A stretch of 43,912 bases of DNA. Source: Lentisphaerota bacterium. GTDB lineage: Bacteria > Verrucomicrobiota > Kiritimatiellia > PWTM01. The notes under the pieces were generated by a model. It was given only the letters and a program-made list of their open reading frames with translations, ran no database searches and was not told where the DNA came from. The position numbers were made by a program, and so were the translations under genes. Location: contig VGWF01000020.1 of the NCBI GenBank assembly GCA_016873715.1, positions 1 to 43,912 of the forward strand, given 5' to 3'. Below, one piece after another: positions 6,195 to 36,314 of the stretch (within the stretch, counting starts at the first letter, position 1; every line of letters starts with the position of its first letter).

Positions 6195-6271
6195 GGGCCC
6201 GTAGCTCAGTTGGTCAGAGCTGGAGACTCATAATCTCTAGGTCGCAGGTTCGAGCCCTGCCGGGCCCACCA
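6195..6271 (+). tRNA. tRNA with CAU anticodon, probably tRNA-Ile2 (lysidine), possibly tRNA-Met
   Basis: A 77-nt cloverleaf: 7-bp acceptor stem (6195-6201 with 6261-6267), D arm starting GCTCAG, anticodon stem 6222-6226/6234-6238 with loop CTCATAA (anticodon CAT at 6229-6231), T arm with GGTTCGA, and encoded CCA (6269-6271). CAU occurs in initiator Met, elongator Met and Ile2. The C4-G69 and C5-G68 pairs and the GGTCGC variable region resemble tRNA-Ile2, whose C34 is modified to lysidine by TilS to read AUA. An initiator is unlikely because the acceptor end begins with a paired G-C. Confidence 0.85.
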
Positions 6272-13587: not shown

Positions 13588-13710
13588 GCGGTCCCGCCGG
13601 GCTCGTCTGCGGGACTCCGCTCCTAGCGGTCCCGCCGGGCTCGTCTGCGGGACTCCGCTCCTAGCGGTCCCGCCGGGCTCATCGGCGGTCCCGCCGGGCT
13701 TGTCCCGGCG
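13588..13710. repeat. 38-bp tandem repeats, two exact and two partial copies
   Basis: Units 13588-13625 and 13626-13663 are identical. Two shorter degenerate units follow (from 13664 and about 13685), all built around GGTCCCGCCGGGCT. A related piece lies at 36276-36302. The array is in the gap upstream of the FAD oxidoreductase gene. Unit recombination or slippage is likely. Confidence 0.8.
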
Positions 13711-18821: not shown

Positions 18822-20159
18822 TCACTCCGCCAGCGCCGCGAGCGTGTCGTAGGGGTAGATGGACGATGTGTGGCCGTCGGACCAGTGGATCGCGACGGCG
18901 TAGTTGCCCATCGGCTCGATGTGCGTCGGCTCGACGGCTTCGGGCACCGTGGCGGGGTCGAGCTTCTTCTCGCCCGTCCGTTCGTCGACGCACAGCGCGC
19001 AGGAGCAGGCGCGGCGAAGCAGGGCGGGCGACACGACCGACGCTGCGCCGTCCGTCGGCGCGACGACGATCCCGCGACCCGGCTCCCAACTCACCGCGGG
19101 CGGAGCGCCGGCGCCGTGGCGCAGGCGGCTGACCTCTCGCACGACCGCCGCGCCGAGCTCGCGGAACGCCGCGGCGGCCGGCCCCTCCGGCTCGGCCAGC
19201 ACGACTGGGCGTCCGCCGTCGCTCCACGTGGAGATCTCCTCGCGGATCGGAAGGTCGACCGCCGTGCGGATGCCGAACTGGTTCACCAGCCGCTCGCGCG
19301 CACCGGCGCCGAAGGGGCGGTGGCGCGTGCCGCAGCCGGGGCAGTCGTACCAGCTCATGTTCTCGACGACGGCGACGACCGGCACCCTGAGCTTGTCGAA
19401 CATCTGGATGCCCTTGACGACGTCGACGAAGCTGAGCTTCTGCGGCGTGGTGACGATCACGGCGGCGGAAACCGGCACTCGCTGCATCAGCGTGAGCTGG
19501 ATGTCGCCCGTGCCCGGCGGCATGTCGACGACGAGGTGGTCCAGCTCGCCCCACTCGGTCTGCGTGAGAAGCTGGTCGAGGACCTGGCTGACCATCGGGC
19601 CGCGCATGATCGCCGGGCCGCCCTGCGGTGCGGCGAAGCCGAAGGACATCAGCTTCACGCCCTCGTAGACCAGGGGTTGGATGCGGTTGCCGCGCGCGTA
19701 GACCTCGGTCTCCGCCGGCGAGACCATTGTCGGCAGGCTCGGGCCGAAGATGTCGGCGTCGAAGAGCCCGACGCGCGACCCGAGGCCCGCGAGGGTGTAG
19801 GCAAGGTTGACCGCGACGGTCGACTTCCCCACCCCGCCCTTGCAGCTCGAGACGGCGAGGATCGTCCCGACGCCCTCGAGCCCGTTTCCGGAGGGCGACG
19901 GCGGGCGCGGGCGCGCGGCGGCGGAGAGGGTCACGTCGACCGACTTCACCCACGGCAGGGCGCGCAGCGCCTCGACGCATTGCGTCCGGAACTGCTCCTT
20001 GATCGGACAGGCGGGCGTGGTCAGTTCGAGGGTGAATCGCACGCGGCCGTCGTCGAGCCCCGCCAGGTTCTTGACGAACCCGAGCGAGACGATGTCCCGC
20101 CCGAGGTCGGGGTCGATGATGACGCGCAACGCATCCAGCGCTTCCGATTCGCGGTTCAT
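18822..20159 (-). CDS. Mrp/ApbC-type Fe-S carrier ATPase with C-terminal DUF971 domain
   Basis: 445 aa. Three parts: an N-terminal MIP18/DUF59 domain (about 1-80, IIDPDLGRDIVSLGFVKN and TTPACP), a P-loop ATPase of the Mrp family (about 95-345) and a C-terminal DUF971 domain (about 355-445). The ATPase has the deviant Walker A CKGGVGKST (106-114), FDADIFGPSLP and MPPGTGD. CPGCG near residue 267 is the CxxC that bridges an Fe-S cluster in the dimer. The DUF971 domain carries LLRRACSCALCVDERTG and IHWSDGHTSSIYPYDTL. Such proteins bind and deliver Fe-S clusters in the cytoplasm. The DUF971 tail, known in Mrp fusions, adds three cysteines. The start at 20159 has GGAAGGG upstream. Confidence 0.92.
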   Translation of the reverse strand: MNRESEALDALRVIIDPDLGRDIVSLGFVKNLAGLDDGRVRFTLELTTPACPIKEQFRTQCVEALRALPWVKSVDVTLSAAARPRPPSPSGNGLEGVGTILAVSSCKGGVGKSTVAVNLAYTLAGLGSRVGLFDADIFGPSLPTMVSPAETEVYARGNRIQPLVYEGVKLMSFGFAAPQGGPAIMRGPMVSQVLDQLLTQTEWGELDHLVVDMPPGTGDIQLTLMQRVPVSAAVIVTTPQKLSFVDVVKGIQMFDKLRVPVVAVVENMSWYDCPGCGTRHRPFGAGARERLVNQFGIRTAVDLPIREEISTWSDGGRPVVLAEPEGPAAAAFRELGAAVVREVSRLRHGAGAPPAVSWEPGRGIVVAPTDGAASVVSPALLRRACSCALCVDERTGEKKLDPATVPEAVEPTHIEPMGNYAVAIHWSDGHTSSIYPYDTLAALAE

Positions 20160-20191
20160 GGCAGCCCTTCCGAAAGGGATGAATCTACCGC

Positions 20192-21085
20192 ATGCGGCGC
20201 GCGCGTTCCACGCCGCGGCCGGTTGCCCTGGTGCTTATGGTCCCGACCGCGACGGAGCGCGGCCCTCCAGATCGGATTCCACGGGGACATGAGAGGACGG
20301 ACCTGGAGGGCGCCGCTCCGTCGGCGCCGTGCAAGAGACCCTCGAAGCAAGGTCCGTCGCTGATCGCCTCACATCATGCGGCGCGCGCGTTCCACGTCGC
20401 GTCCGGTTGCCCTGGTGCTTATGGTTCCGGCCGCGACGGAGCGCGGCCCTCCAGATCGGATTCCACAGGGGCACGAGAGGACGGACCTGGAGGGCGCCGC
20501 TCCGTCGGCGCCGTACAAGAGACCCTCGAAGCAAGGTCCGTCGCTGATCGCCTCACATCATGCGGCGCGCGCGTTCCACGCCACGTCCGGTTGCCCTGGT
20601 GCTTATGGTTCCGGCCGCGACGGAGCGCGGCCCTCCAGATCGGATTCCACAAGGACACGAGAGGACGGACCTGGAGGGCGCCGCTCCGTCGGCGCCGTAC
20701 AAGAGACCCTCGAAGCAAGGTCCGTCGCTGATCGCCTCACATCATGCGGCGCGCGCGTTCCACGCGGCGGCCGGTTCCCGGATCCCCGCCTGGGTGCTTG
20801 CGGTTCCGGCCGCGACGGAGCGCGGCCCTCCAGATCGGATTCCACAGGGACACGAGAGGACGGACCTGGAGGGCGCCGCTCCGTCGGCGCCGTGCAGGAG
20901 ACCCTCGGAACAGGGTTCGTCGACTCACAGCATGCGACGCGCGCGCTCCACGCCGCGTCCGGTGGCCCGGATCCCCGCCTGGGTGCTTACAGTTCCGGCC
21001 GCGACGGAGCGCGGCCCTCCAGATCGGATTCCACAGGGACATGAGAGGACGGACCTGGAGGGCGCCGCTCCGTCGGCGCCGGCCG
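20192..21085. repeat. Five ~184-bp tandem repeats built on a long inverted repeat
   Basis: Units start at 20192, 20376, 20560, 20744 and 20932 (lengths 184, 184, 184, 188 and a last partial of about 150). Units 2 and 3 are nearly identical; 4 and 5 carry a small insertion near GGATCCCCGCCTGGGT. Each unit contains 21-nt arms, in unit 1 at 20250-20270 and 20303-20323, pairing at 19 of 21 positions around a 32-nt loop. The array fills the gap between the Mrp and agarase-like genes (20160-21133) with no supported coding sequence. Single copies occur at 26776, 30190 and, degenerate, 33700. Confidence 0.9.
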
Positions 21086-21133: not shown

Positions 21134-22510
21134 TCACCGCCGGTCGAGGACCGGCCAGACGCGCTCGTTGAGGGCGCGCATGCGGTCGAGCAGGTCCGGG
21201 TAGGGCTTGAACACGTTGTTGACGATGCCCTTGTTGGAGTCGCGGTTGGACGGATCGGAGCGGGTGTCGGTCGGATCGTTGTCGATGTACTTGAACCAGT
21301 GCCAGCCGACGAAGTGCGGCGATTCGAGCAGGCCGAGGGCGAAGTTCTGGTAGTAGAGCCCGCGTTCGCGCTGGGTCTTCACGGTCCAGCCGGCGCCGGA
21401 GATGTTGCCCATGCCGGAGTCCATGCCCTTCGCGTACCACTCGGTCACCATCAACGGCCGGCCGGCGGCGGCGGCAAGCGGCGCGAGCTTCGCGGGATCG
21501 GGGCTCCAGACGCCGTAGTAGTTCATCGAGACGATGTCCACGTGCGCCCCGCACGCGCGGTACAGGTCCGGCTTCCGGTGGTCCGAACCGTGGAGCCGGC
21601 TGCCGAGGTAGAGGTGGTTCGGGTCGGCGGCGCGGATCGCGGCGGCGCAGATGGCGAAGTAGCGGTCCGCGACGACGGAAAGGAAGGAGGAGCGGTCGGC
21701 GTCGCCCCAGCCCTTCGGTCCCTTCGCCGCGCCGCGCTCCTTCACCCACGCCTCGGCGGCCTTCCGTCCCGGATCGCCGGCGGGCAGCGCGAGAAACCGG
21801 TCCAGCGCGTCGTCCGGGAAGGGAAGCTCGTTGTCGGAGAAGTGCCCGACGCACAGCGGGTCGTCGCGGACCTCCGCGAGCGCGGCGGCGGCGTTGGTGC
21901 GCGCATGCGTCTCGAACGCCGGGTCGAAGACATGGATGCAGTTGTTGCTGAAGGCGAGGTGACCGGAGGTCTGCCACGCGCCGCGGTGCCGGCTGCCGTA
22001 GCGGGCCATCATGTTGAGCTGCGTCATGTAGGGCAGCGCGTTCGTGGCGCGGCGGAGGGTCGCCCAGTCGGAAAAGCAGGCCGTGGTGTTGAATCCGTTC
22101 GTCCGTAGCAGGTCGAGGGTCGCCCGCGCCCAGCCGTCCTCGTCGCCGAACTTCTCCTTCAGCGCCTCGCGACCGCGCCCCGACTTGCCCGGGGACACGC
22201 TGCAGACGCCGACGCTGTACCACGCGCAGCCGTCCGGGTCGGCCATCGTCCAGCCCTCCGCGTTCTTGAGCACGCGGAAGAAGCCGGGGGCCGCGAGTTT
22301 CCGGTCGGTCCGGCCGCCGTAGCGGTTGAGCGGCGGCGCGCGCATCGACTCCCAGCCGTCGACGGCGGCGACCGACCGCGTCTCGCGCGGGGTCCAGGTC
22401 TTGTCCGTGGGCTTGCGCTTCGTGTCGACCGTCACGACGGCGGGGTCGGCCGCCATCACGGCGGGCATCGCGAACAACAGGCAGCCGATCACCGGCCGCA
22501 GGCGGCTCAT
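21134..22510 (-). CDS. Secreted glycoside hydrolase resembling GH50 agarases
   Basis: 458 aa. A signal peptide (MSRLRPVIGCLLFAMPAVMA) is followed by a (beta/alpha)8 catalytic domain. Landmarks are GFFRVLKNAEGWTMADPDG near residue 75, HFSDNELP (candidate acid/base Glu), YGVWSP, PLMVTEWYAKGMDS (candidate nucleophile Glu) and the C-terminal FVGWHWFKYIDNDP with SNRDSNKGIV. This arrangement resembles clan GH-A enzymes of the GH50 agarase type, but the family call is from memory of motifs. Substrate could be agarose-like or another beta-galactan. GAGG lies before the ATG at 22510. A DUF1080 gene and its hairpin lie directly upstream. Confidence 0.72.
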   Translation of the reverse strand: MSRLRPVIGCLLFAMPAVMAADPAVVTVDTKRKPTDKTWTPRETRSVAAVDGWESMRAPPLNRYGGRTDRKLAAPGFFRVLKNAEGWTMADPDGCAWYSVGVCSVSPGKSGRGREALKEKFGDEDGWARATLDLLRTNGFNTTACFSDWATLRRATNALPYMTQLNMMARYGSRHRGAWQTSGHLAFSNNCIHVFDPAFETHARTNAAAALAEVRDDPLCVGHFSDNELPFPDDALDRFLALPAGDPGRKAAEAWVKERGAAKGPKGWGDADRSSFLSVVADRYFAICAAAIRAADPNHLYLGSRLHGSDHRKPDLYRACGAHVDIVSMNYYGVWSPDPAKLAPLAAAAGRPLMVTEWYAKGMDSGMGNISGAGWTVKTQRERGLYYQNFALGLLESPHFVGWHWFKYIDNDPTDTRSDPSNRDSNKGIVNNVFKPYPDLLDRMRALNERVWPVLDRR

Positions 22511-26775: not shown

Positions 26776-26903
26776 AGATCAGGCCGCGACGGAGCGCGGC
26801 CCTCCAGGTCCTATTCCAAGGAGATACGAGAGGGAGGTTCTGGAGGGCGCCGCTCCGTCGGCGCCGTTCGGGAGATCCGCGAAGCGTCGTCCGTTCCTGA
26901 TCT
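26776..26903. repeat. Dispersed hairpin repeat, single copy
   Basis: One copy of the family amplified at 20.2-21.1 kb. Inner arms are 26787-26807 and 26840-26860. The element is bounded by an 8-bp inverted repeat, AGATCAGG (26776-26783) and CCTGATCT (26896-26903). It has no coding capacity and lies between convergent genes. Confidence 0.8.
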
Positions 26904-30189: not shown

Positions 30190-30300
30190 GATCAGGACCG
30201 GACGAAGCTTCGGGGGGCTTCTGCACGGCGCCGACGGAGCGGCGCCCTCCAGACCCGTCCTCCCATATCGCCATGGAGCGGGACGGGAGGGCCGCGCCCT
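30190..30300. repeat. Dispersed hairpin repeat, inverted copy
   Basis: Opposite orientation to the 26.8-kb copy. The outer GATCAGG is at 30190-30196, the conserved arm at 30232-30252, and a degraded partner arm at about 30284-30300. It lies upstream of both divergent neighbours and may affect their expression. Confidence 0.7.
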
Positions 30301-31427: not shown

Positions 31428-33626
31428 ATGGCAGCCTCGATCCAACCGAAGACCGTCCTGTTCGTGTGCACCGGCAATTCGTGCCGGAGCCCGATGGCGG
31501 AGCACTTGTTTCGTCTCCGGGCGGGACCGGAGGCCCCCTGGCGGGCGGAATCGGCCGGGCTGGCGGCGGCGGACGGCTGGCCGGCGAGCGACGGGGCCGT
31601 CACGGTCATGCGCGAGGCCGGCGCCGATCTCTCCACCCACCGCAGCCGGGGAATGACCCGCGCCATCGCGGAGGCGGCGGACCTTGTCCTCGTGATGACC
31701 GCCGGCCACCTTCGGCACTTCCAGGCCCAGTTTCCCGGGGCGGCATCGAAGGCGCGCCTGCTGGCGTCGTACCGGACCGGCGACGCGGCCGGGGACATCC
31801 CCGACCCGATCAGCCAGTCGGTCTTCGTCTACCGGCGCGTTCGAAACGACATCGACAGCGCGATCGCCGACCTCCTGCTCGCCCTGCGGGCGGAGGCCCC
31901 GGCGGAGGGGAAGGACCGGACGGCGGCAGCGACCCACGGAGGACCCATGAAGATCGTCATCGGCGCGGACCACGGCGGATTCGAACGCAAACAGGAGATC
32001 GTCGGCCTGCTCAAGGCCCGGGGCCTCGAGGTGGAGGACATCGGCACGAGCTCGAAGGAGTCGGTCGATTACACCGACTACGCCGCGGAGGTCGCCCGCC
32101 GCGTCGCCGCCGGCTCCGCCGACCAGGGCATCCTCGTCTGCACCACCGGCCTCGGCGTCTCGATGACGGCCAACAAGGTGCCCGGCGTCCGCGCCGCGCT
32201 CTGCACCTCGCCGCGCATGGCCGAGATGGCCCGAAAGCACAACAACGCGAACGTGCTCGCGCTCGGCGGGGCGATCGTGTCGAAGGACGAGGCCACCGCG
32301 ATCCTCGACACCTGGCTCGGCGCCTCGTTCGAGGGCGGCCGCCACGAGCGGCGCATCGGCAAGATGGGCCTCGTCGAGGGCGAGGCCGGCGCGCTCGGGG
32401 CCGTCGCCGCGAACGACCCCGCCCTCTTCGCCGCGATCCTCGCCGAGGGGCAGCGCCAGCGGGACAACCTCGAGTTGATCGCGTCCGAGAACTACACGAG
32501 CCAGGCCGTCCGCGAGGCCGCCGGCTCCGTGCTGACGAACAAGTACGCCGAGGGCTACCCCGGCAAGCGCTGGTACGGCGGCTGCGAGCACGTCGACGAG
32601 GCCGAGCGCCTCGCGATCGAGCGCGCCAAGGCCCTCTTCGGCGCCGAGCACGCGAACGTCCAGCCGCACTGCGGCAGCGGCGCCAACATGGCCGCCTACT
32701 TCGCCCTGCTCCAGCCCGGCGACACGCTGATGGCCATGAGCCTCGCCGACGGCGGCCACCTGACGCACGGCCACAAGATGAATTTCTCCGGGCGCTTCTT
32801 CAACGTCGTGCCCTACGGCGTCGCGCGCGACGGCGAGCGGATCGACTACGACGCCCTCGAGAAGCTCGCGCTCGAGCACAAGCCGAAGATGATCTGCGCC
32901 GGGGCCAGCGCCTACCCGCGCATCATCGACTTCCCGCGCCTGCGCGCCATCGCCGACCAGGTCGGCGCGCTGCTGATGGTCGACATGGCCCACATCGCCG
33001 GCCTCGTCGCGGGCGGCGTCCACCCCAGCCCCGTGCCGTACTGCGACGTCGTCACGACGACGACCCACAAGACCCTCCGCGGCCCGCGCGGCGGACTGAT
33101 CCTCTGCCGCGAGAAGTTCGCCGCGGACATCGACAAGCAGGTCTTCCCCGGCATCCAGGGCGGCCCACTCATGCACATCATCGCCGCCAAGGCCGCGTGC
33201 CTCGGCGAGGCGCTCAAGCCTTCGTTCAAGGACTACGCCGCGCAGATCGTGAAGAACGCCTCCGTCCTTGCCGGCGTGCTGGCCGCGGGCGGCCTGCGCA
33301 TCGTATCCGGCGGCACCGACAACCACCTGATGCTCGTCGACGTCACCTCGGCCAGCCTGACCGGCAAGGAAACCGCCGCGGCGCTGGACAAGGCCTGCAT
33401 CACGGTGAACAAGAACGCGATCCCGTTCGACACCAAGAGCCCGTTCGTCACCTCCGGCGTCCGCGTCGGGACGCCCGCCGTCACCACGCGCGGCATGAAG
33501 GAGGAGGAGATGAAGACGATCGGACGCTGCATCCTCGATGTCGTCGCGGCCCCCGCCGACGAGGCCGCCATCGCCCGCGTCCGCGAAGCCGTGCTCGCCC
33601 TGACCGCCCGGTTCCCGGTGCCGTAG
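31428..33626 (+). CDS. Tri-domain fusion: low-molecular-weight phosphatase, ribose-5-phosphate isomerase B, serine hydroxymethyltransferase
   Basis: 732 aa in one open frame. Residues 1-155 are an LMW protein-tyrosine/arginine phosphatase with loop [13 protein letters not shown] (Cys14, Arg20) and acid Asp126 in DIPDPISQS. Residues 174-312 are RpiB, with ADHGG at the start and Cys238 (position 65 of the domain, matching the catalytic Cys) in [13 protein letters not shown]. Residues about 320-732 are [13 protein letters not shown], the PLP Lys548 in [26 protein letters not shown]. In Bacillus the same three activities are neighbouring separate genes. GGAGG lies 4 bases before the internal ATG at 31947, so RpiB-SHMT could also be made alone. 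The RpiB-SHMT link (residues 305-325) has no such site. Cytoplasmic; links pentose phosphate and one-carbon metabolism. Confidence 0.88.
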
Positions 33627-36162: not shown

Positions 36163-36314
36163 CGTCCGTCCCCCGGTCCGCCGCAGCCCGCGGCGCGACG
36201 GGATTGTCCACGGATGGCCCCGCGCACTCCAGTCCCGAATCGTCCCGTCCTTGGACGCCGCCCCGCGGCGCCCCGGTCCCACCGGGCTTGCCCCGGCGGG
36301 CCGCGAAACCGGAC

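Follow-up and report, generated by a model that had tools for sequence, protein, structure and literature searches.

A five-unit tandem array upstream of an mrp-type gene in a Lentisphaerota genome is very probably a cluster of REPINs from a REP/RAYT lineage with GGAG tags

The tandem array at positions 20191-21081 of the 43,912-nucleotide stretch of Lentisphaerota DNA analysed here (the window) is very probably a cluster of REPINs belonging to a GGAG-tagged REP/RAYT lineage, in which the REPs (repetitive extragenic palindromes) would act as folded single-stranded DNA sites for a RAYT (REP-associated tyrosine transposase, HUH/Y1 family) encoded elsewhere in the genome. Observed here were the palindromes, their copy number and extragenic location, covariation of their stems, a physical as well as a phylogenetic link to RAYT genes and a link between arrays and RAYT-associated palindromes. 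A sequence-only reading of the same DNA had offered an RNA structure, a protein-binding platform or a recombination hotspot without choosing among them; the evidence points to the substrate of a mobile element, namely REPINs of a RAYT.

The array was delimited by TRF (20191-21081, strand not assigned) with a period of 184 bp, 4.8 copies and a score of 1337, and start-to-start spacings were 184, 184, 195 and 189 bp, in agreement with the five units of about 184 bp first noted, although the count of five is provisional because the source assembly is fragmented (289 contigs) and comes with no reads. All units were taken on the + strand. With unit 2 (20375-20558) as reference, identity was 96% for unit 1 (20191-20374) and 98% for unit 3 (20559-20742), as opposed to 87% for unit 4 (20743-20931), which has a longer left flank and a diverged tail, and 86% for unit 5 (20932-21081), which is without the tail and extends no further than the base of its type A hairpin. 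The high similarity ascribed to the units is therefore a property of units 1-3 and not of units 4 and 5. In the unit alignment, the left flank of the near-identical units 1-3 was about 11 bp shorter than that of units 4 and 5, and units differed at up to 9 of 53 positions in the left flank and up to 13 of 40 in the tail, while the REP pair was identical across units 2-5 (50/50 positions) and differed by one base in unit 1. Judged from these alignments, units 4 and 5 appear to be older copies and units 1-3 the most recent expansion, i.e., nested younger duplicates, and it is for these three units that the recent expansion proposed earlier was borne out.

No genes were predicted by a codon-model gene caller between 20160 and 21133; the array is wholly intergenic, as expected from the lack of visible coding content remarked on before. 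A coding repeat was ruled out, since 184 bp cannot be divided into whole codons and no gene was called in the array, and a known structured RNA was ruled out by an Rfam search of the window, in which the sole match was a tRNA (6195-6268). On one side, the array is bordered by a gene for an Mrp/ApbC-type Fe-S carrier (18822-20159, - strand; Pfam PF10609, 5.2e-86), upstream of whose start it is situated, and the gene on its other side (21134-22510, - strand), which is without a Pfam match, ends at 21134. In the Mrp-type protein, a FeS_assembly_P domain lies at the N-terminus and a GBBH-like_N domain at the C-terminus. In another part of the window (31428-33626), a single open frame matches a low-molecular-weight phosphatase, an RpiB isomerase and a serine hydroxymethyltransferase in a row, an apparent three-domain fusion.

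Each unit of the array contains two palindromes with the architecture, read on the tag strand, 5' [C/T/A]TGGAG - GGnnnCG - CTCCGT - CGn'n'n'CC, i.e., a 7-bp stem without mismatches that closes a 6-nt loop. The genome has three versions of the stem (types A, GGCGCCG; B, GGCCGCG; C, GGGCACG), and tag and loop are identical in all of them. A type B REP on the - strand is followed in each unit, 34 bp away, by a type A REP on the + strand, with tags facing inward, at 20245-20269 and 20304-20328 in unit 1, 20429-20453 and 20488-20512 in unit 2, 20613-20637 and 20672-20696 in unit 3, 20808-20832 and 20867-20891 in unit 4 and 20997-21021 and 21056-21080 in unit 5. Inward-facing B-A pairs of this kind qualify as REPINs, and a gap of 32-34 bp is the commonest class. 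The published REP definition and finder use GTAG or GTGG (PMC6006769); here the tetranucleotide conserved at the corresponding place is GGAG, and the REPs are filed as a variant for this reason. Assignment to the CGTC-tagged REPs, which have an unpaired CGTC end, an 8-9 bp stem beginning with AT and no transposase link, was ruled out by a 7-bp stem beginning with GG and by the presence of a transposase link.

The 21-nt inverted arms described earlier are exact, the arm CGACGGAGCGNNGCCCTCCAG being matched 10 times within the array and 3 times in the rest of the window (0.18 expected in shuffles), but they belong to two palindrome types that differ at the centre, each within its own 7-bp hairpin. 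Folding, too, was correctly foreseen but takes the form of two REP hairpins; as single-stranded DNA, either can form alone (-9.8 kcal/mol), and the two can also pair into a single longer structure (about -30 kcal/mol, z = -3.7). Evidence for a further stem enclosing the type A REP was unconvincing (z of -1.7 and -0.9). The tag was GGAG in nearly all of 127 REPs picked by stem and loop alone, and among REPs of this genome picked by tag and loop alone, the 7-bp stem was perfect in 109 of 116.

As had been stated, single copies also occur elsewhere, including, in the window, a lone intergenic B-A REPIN (26782-26865, + strand) and a solitary intergenic type A REP (30227-30251, - strand). The 21-mer with up to 2 mismatches had 233 copies in the genome and none in a reversed-pattern control, and two stricter REP patterns had 228 and 221, so that the genome search suggested earlier returns some 220-230 copies, many of them in other tandem arrays. 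At a coding density of 90%, 103 of 110 tested REPs lay outside genes predicted by the codon-model caller, which was seeded on confirmed genes, and 78 of the 95 extragenic REPs that could be classified sit between co-directional genes. Tandem arrays of whole REPINs were found at other loci (contigs C43, C63, C73, C119, C130 and C139), as were arrays of single REPs with their 3' flank (contigs C23, C37, C40, C75 and C128); unit length varied with locus from 69 to 245 bp and several arrays lay at contig ends. The dispersed stretch around the REPIN corresponds to unit positions from about 50 to 176 (own-genome matches span from 47/54 to 174/178, with spacer and tail conserved), which in unit 2 is represented by 20428-20552 (+ strand) and comprises REP B, the 34-bp spacer, REP A and a tail of about 40 bp. 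Since these positions recur elsewhere, the mobile core would be about 125 bp (REPIN plus tail), and the remaining 60 bp or so of the 184-bp unit would be local flank caught in the amplification. The idea of a dispersed element amplified in tandem is upheld as regards amplification, but the unit as a whole is not one dispersed element.

Several Y1/RAYT proteins are encoded in the same genome. The RAYT on contig C147 has HUH and Tyr motifs and a profile match to the solved E. coli TnpA-REP (4ER8; E 1e-9), and against NF047646 (REP_Tyr_transpos) it scored 80 bits, at and not well above the curated cut-off of 80, and 81.1 bits, above the cut-off, in a second search. Around its gene lie five exact type C REPs, which occur on both sides and form a 142-bp array, and one exact type A REP, the whole constituting a REPtron; no RAYT flanked by type B REPs was found in the assembly. 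Related RAYTs have palindromes of their own, TGGAG-GGGCGAGCTACCGCGAGCCC on contig C170 and CTCCGT-loop REPs on contig C11. The contig C11 gene includes two REPs (a REPIN, L071 1648-1708) in frame, which lengthen the segment separating its HUH motif from its Tyr motif by about 32 residues; in-frame palindromes inside the gene are known for another RAYT subclass (PMC6006769). A RAYT reading frame on contig C35 (33300-34100; L073) has internal duplications that repeat its own C-terminal part together with palindromes.

A scan with these three RAYTs (C147, C170 and C11) returned 80 loci, mostly from Kiritimatiellae, Verrucomicrobia, Lentisphaerae and Planctomycetes, a distribution from which the source of the window would probably belong to the Kiritimatiellia. 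An unbiased hairpin search of their 700-bp flanks found 871 hairpins, compared with 66 in shuffled flanks; the commonest loop was CTCCGT, and the tetramer preceding the hairpins was GGAG at 43 of the 80 loci, GTAG at 12 and the next most frequent tetramer at 7. At the other RAYT loci, selection on tag and loop alone gave 124 REPs, of which 84 had a perfect 7-bp stem; these perfect stems were of 24 different kinds. The stem covariation score for 57 distinct REPs was 0.629, as opposed to 0.151 in shuffles (0/500 as high) and at most 0.142 for slid structures. In the sequences compared across the phylum, the stem covaries and tag and loop are constant, and palindromes of this kind lie beside RAYT genes in many PVC bacteria. 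Tag type (i.e., GGAG or GT[AG]G) follows the RAYT tree, with 4 changes compared with 15.4 for shuffled labels (0/500). Further, among 145 genomes of the phylum, a RAYT was called at E <= 1e-20 in 16 of the 20 with at least 5 such REPs and in 14 of the 125 others (Fisher p = 6e-10, a value that overstates independence because related species share phylogeny); at the cut-off used, none was found in 4 of the 20 REP-rich genomes.

The occurrence of arrays was surveyed with TRF in 444 kb of this genome, i.e., the window and 20 stretches of 20 kb chosen regardless of REPs. Arrays with a period of at least 50 bp were found at four places, comprising the window array, two places with palindrome D (CCGGGACAAGCCCGG), which flanks a Y1 gene on contig C27, and a fourth with palindrome E, found on either side of the contig C170 RAYT; three palindrome families, each associated with flanks of Y1 transposase genes, thus account for every one of these arrays. 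At the 80 RAYT loci, arrays with a period of at least 30 bp numbered 41 per 185 kb within 1 kb of the RAYT and 13 per 258 kb further out, and 26 of the 41 RAYT-near arrays held at least two tagged hairpins. The density of arrays near RAYTs and the palindrome-family membership of all sampled arrays indicate that array growth is tied to RAYT-linked palindromes. Roughly 7 of 30 TRF array edges lay, by eye, within 2 bp of a REP edge (about 3 expected), a weak excess.

Other arrays and palindromes of these kinds were noted in passing. A shorter array in the window (13588-13708; period 38, 2.7 copies) lies beside an exact-type copy of palindrome D, and another palindrome D copy lies at 36276. Palindrome E (TGGAGGGGCGAGCTACYGCGAGCCC), the stem of which contains a tandem G-A/G-A mismatch, forms a tandem array on contig C29 (L172 2998-3750). 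The longest REP array seen (14 copies of 61 bp; L085 2043-2899) comes from an Opitutales genome, where it lies upstream of a RAYT. Arrays of period 142 flank a proteobacterial RAYT on both sides (L115 2557-2950 and 3514-3835); this period is shared with the array around the contig C147 RAYT, and the stems differ.

A single-strand DNA transposase (RAYT) encoded in this genome has probably spread the REPIN. Other RAYTs have been shown in vitro to cut and join single-stranded REPs, and they cut at CT or CA sites selected in part through the GTAG tag (PMC8266576); the RAYT of this lineage would likewise cut and join single-stranded REPs. One REPIN would have been placed between mrp and the neighbouring gene, and repeated events at REPs, either RAYT nicking with re-replication or hairpin slippage, would then have duplicated the REPIN and, with it, some 60 bp of local flank. 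Units 4 and 5 would be the older copies, and units 1-3 would have followed once about 11 bp had been lost from within the left flank. A host function for the array need not be assumed. That the tandem copies were made by the transposase is what we infer, and replication slippage at hairpins is the alternative. A bolder proposal is that a PVC-centred RAYT clade uses GGAG REPs with a CTCC loop complementary to the tag, that tag-loop pairing, not seen in GTAG systems, may guide the choice of target or cleavage site and that these RAYTs, besides dispersing REPINs, actively build tandem arrays at their sites (e.g., by nick-initiated re-replication); this is conceivable but, taken as a whole, rather doubtful.

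The tandem step, as distinct from the identity of the elements, is where the closest competitor lies. Slightly short of an even chance is assigned to a reading in which the elements are REPINs but the array grew by RecA-dependent or slippage-type duplication at hairpin-stalled forks, with no part for the RAYT in that step. The strong REPIN folds (-30 kcal/mol, z = -3.7) favour this course, as do the nested younger duplicates represented by units 1-3 and array units whose length depends on the locus (69 to 245 bp) and which take in local flank, a pattern that slippage between neighbouring repeats would produce. It is countered by the clustering of arrays beside RAYT genes in other species, by the involvement of RAYT/Y1-flanking palindromes in all sampled arrays of period at least 50 bp and by genome G013, a member of the same class with many such REPs, the listed copies of which lie mostly as pairs. 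The association of arrays with RAYTs is, however, also predicted by hairpin-driven slippage and does not exclude it.

Maintenance of the array by selection as a regulatory RNA or protein-binding platform for mrp (i.e., an attenuator, mRNA stabiliser or gyrase or IHF-type site) is unlikely. Roles of this kind are on record for E. coli BIMEs (review, PMC8266576), and both the position of the array, upstream of mrp and between co-directional genes like most extragenic REPs of this genome, and the identity of REPs between units at 49-50 of 50 positions, with flank and tail differing by up to a third, would fit. Co-directional intergenic space is, however, simply common, and REPs that had recently spread as transposase sites would be expected to be just as conserved; nor did Rfam provide a match for the array, and such REPs were absent from 4 of the 5 high-completeness genomes of the same family that were sampled and from 7 of 8 in a wider set. 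Collapse or multiplication of a single unit by short-read assembly, as might be suspected in a genome of 289 contigs with several arrays at contig ends, is highly improbable given differences specific to units, including the 11-bp length difference and the diverged tails, which an assembler would not invent.

With the array read as a REPIN cluster of this lineage, the findings bear on REPIN spread and ordered tandem clustering, both open questions in the REP literature. The lineage constitutes a natural series in which at least 30 different perfect stems share one tag and loop and many cognate RAYT genes are available, and one of its genomes holds over a dozen arrays of differing unit length. 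The recognition rules (tag and loop fixed, stem changing by compensation) and array growth become directly testable. REP finders limited to GT[AG]G tags miss this large PVC family.

Among known systems, GTAG-tagged REPs have been reported for PVC bacteria, e.g., Opitutus terrae (PMC3733652), and are alike in superphylum and in being tagged palindromes; the survey in question divided REPs into those with GTAG and those with CGTC ends, and GGAG does not appear in its text, figures and supplements aside. Nor is a GGAG tag mentioned in the text, figures and supplements again aside, of the REP literature searched. Enterobacterial BIME/REP elements share extragenic inverted REP pairs in tandem but differ in tag, and the stem here is perfect, without a bulge. 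The E. coli TnpA-REP/RAYT (4ER8) and RAYT groups 2 and 3 (PMC8266576) are alike in HUH and Tyr motifs, in the 4ER8 profile match and, for group 3, in short perfect palindromes; the tag here is GGAG as opposed to GTAG, and none of the subclass strings given in PMC6006769 is the same as the motif string DH[VI]H / WQ / YVRRNP of the present RAYTs, 2.7 being the nearest. Tandem stacks of REPINs are thus known in other bacteria, whereas the recognition tag and loop of this family are undescribed in the text of the REP literature searched. The closest parallel is Pseudomonas fluorescens SBW25 (Bertels and Rainey, 2011; PMC3116915), in which REPINs likewise consist of two inverted REPs as a unit, are extragenic, number in the hundreds and form tandem clusters that include flanking sequence as well as clusters beside RAYT genes; the present elements are distinguished by the GGAG tag, the CTCCGT loop, different stems within one unit, additional arrays of single REPs with 3' flank and their PVC lineage.
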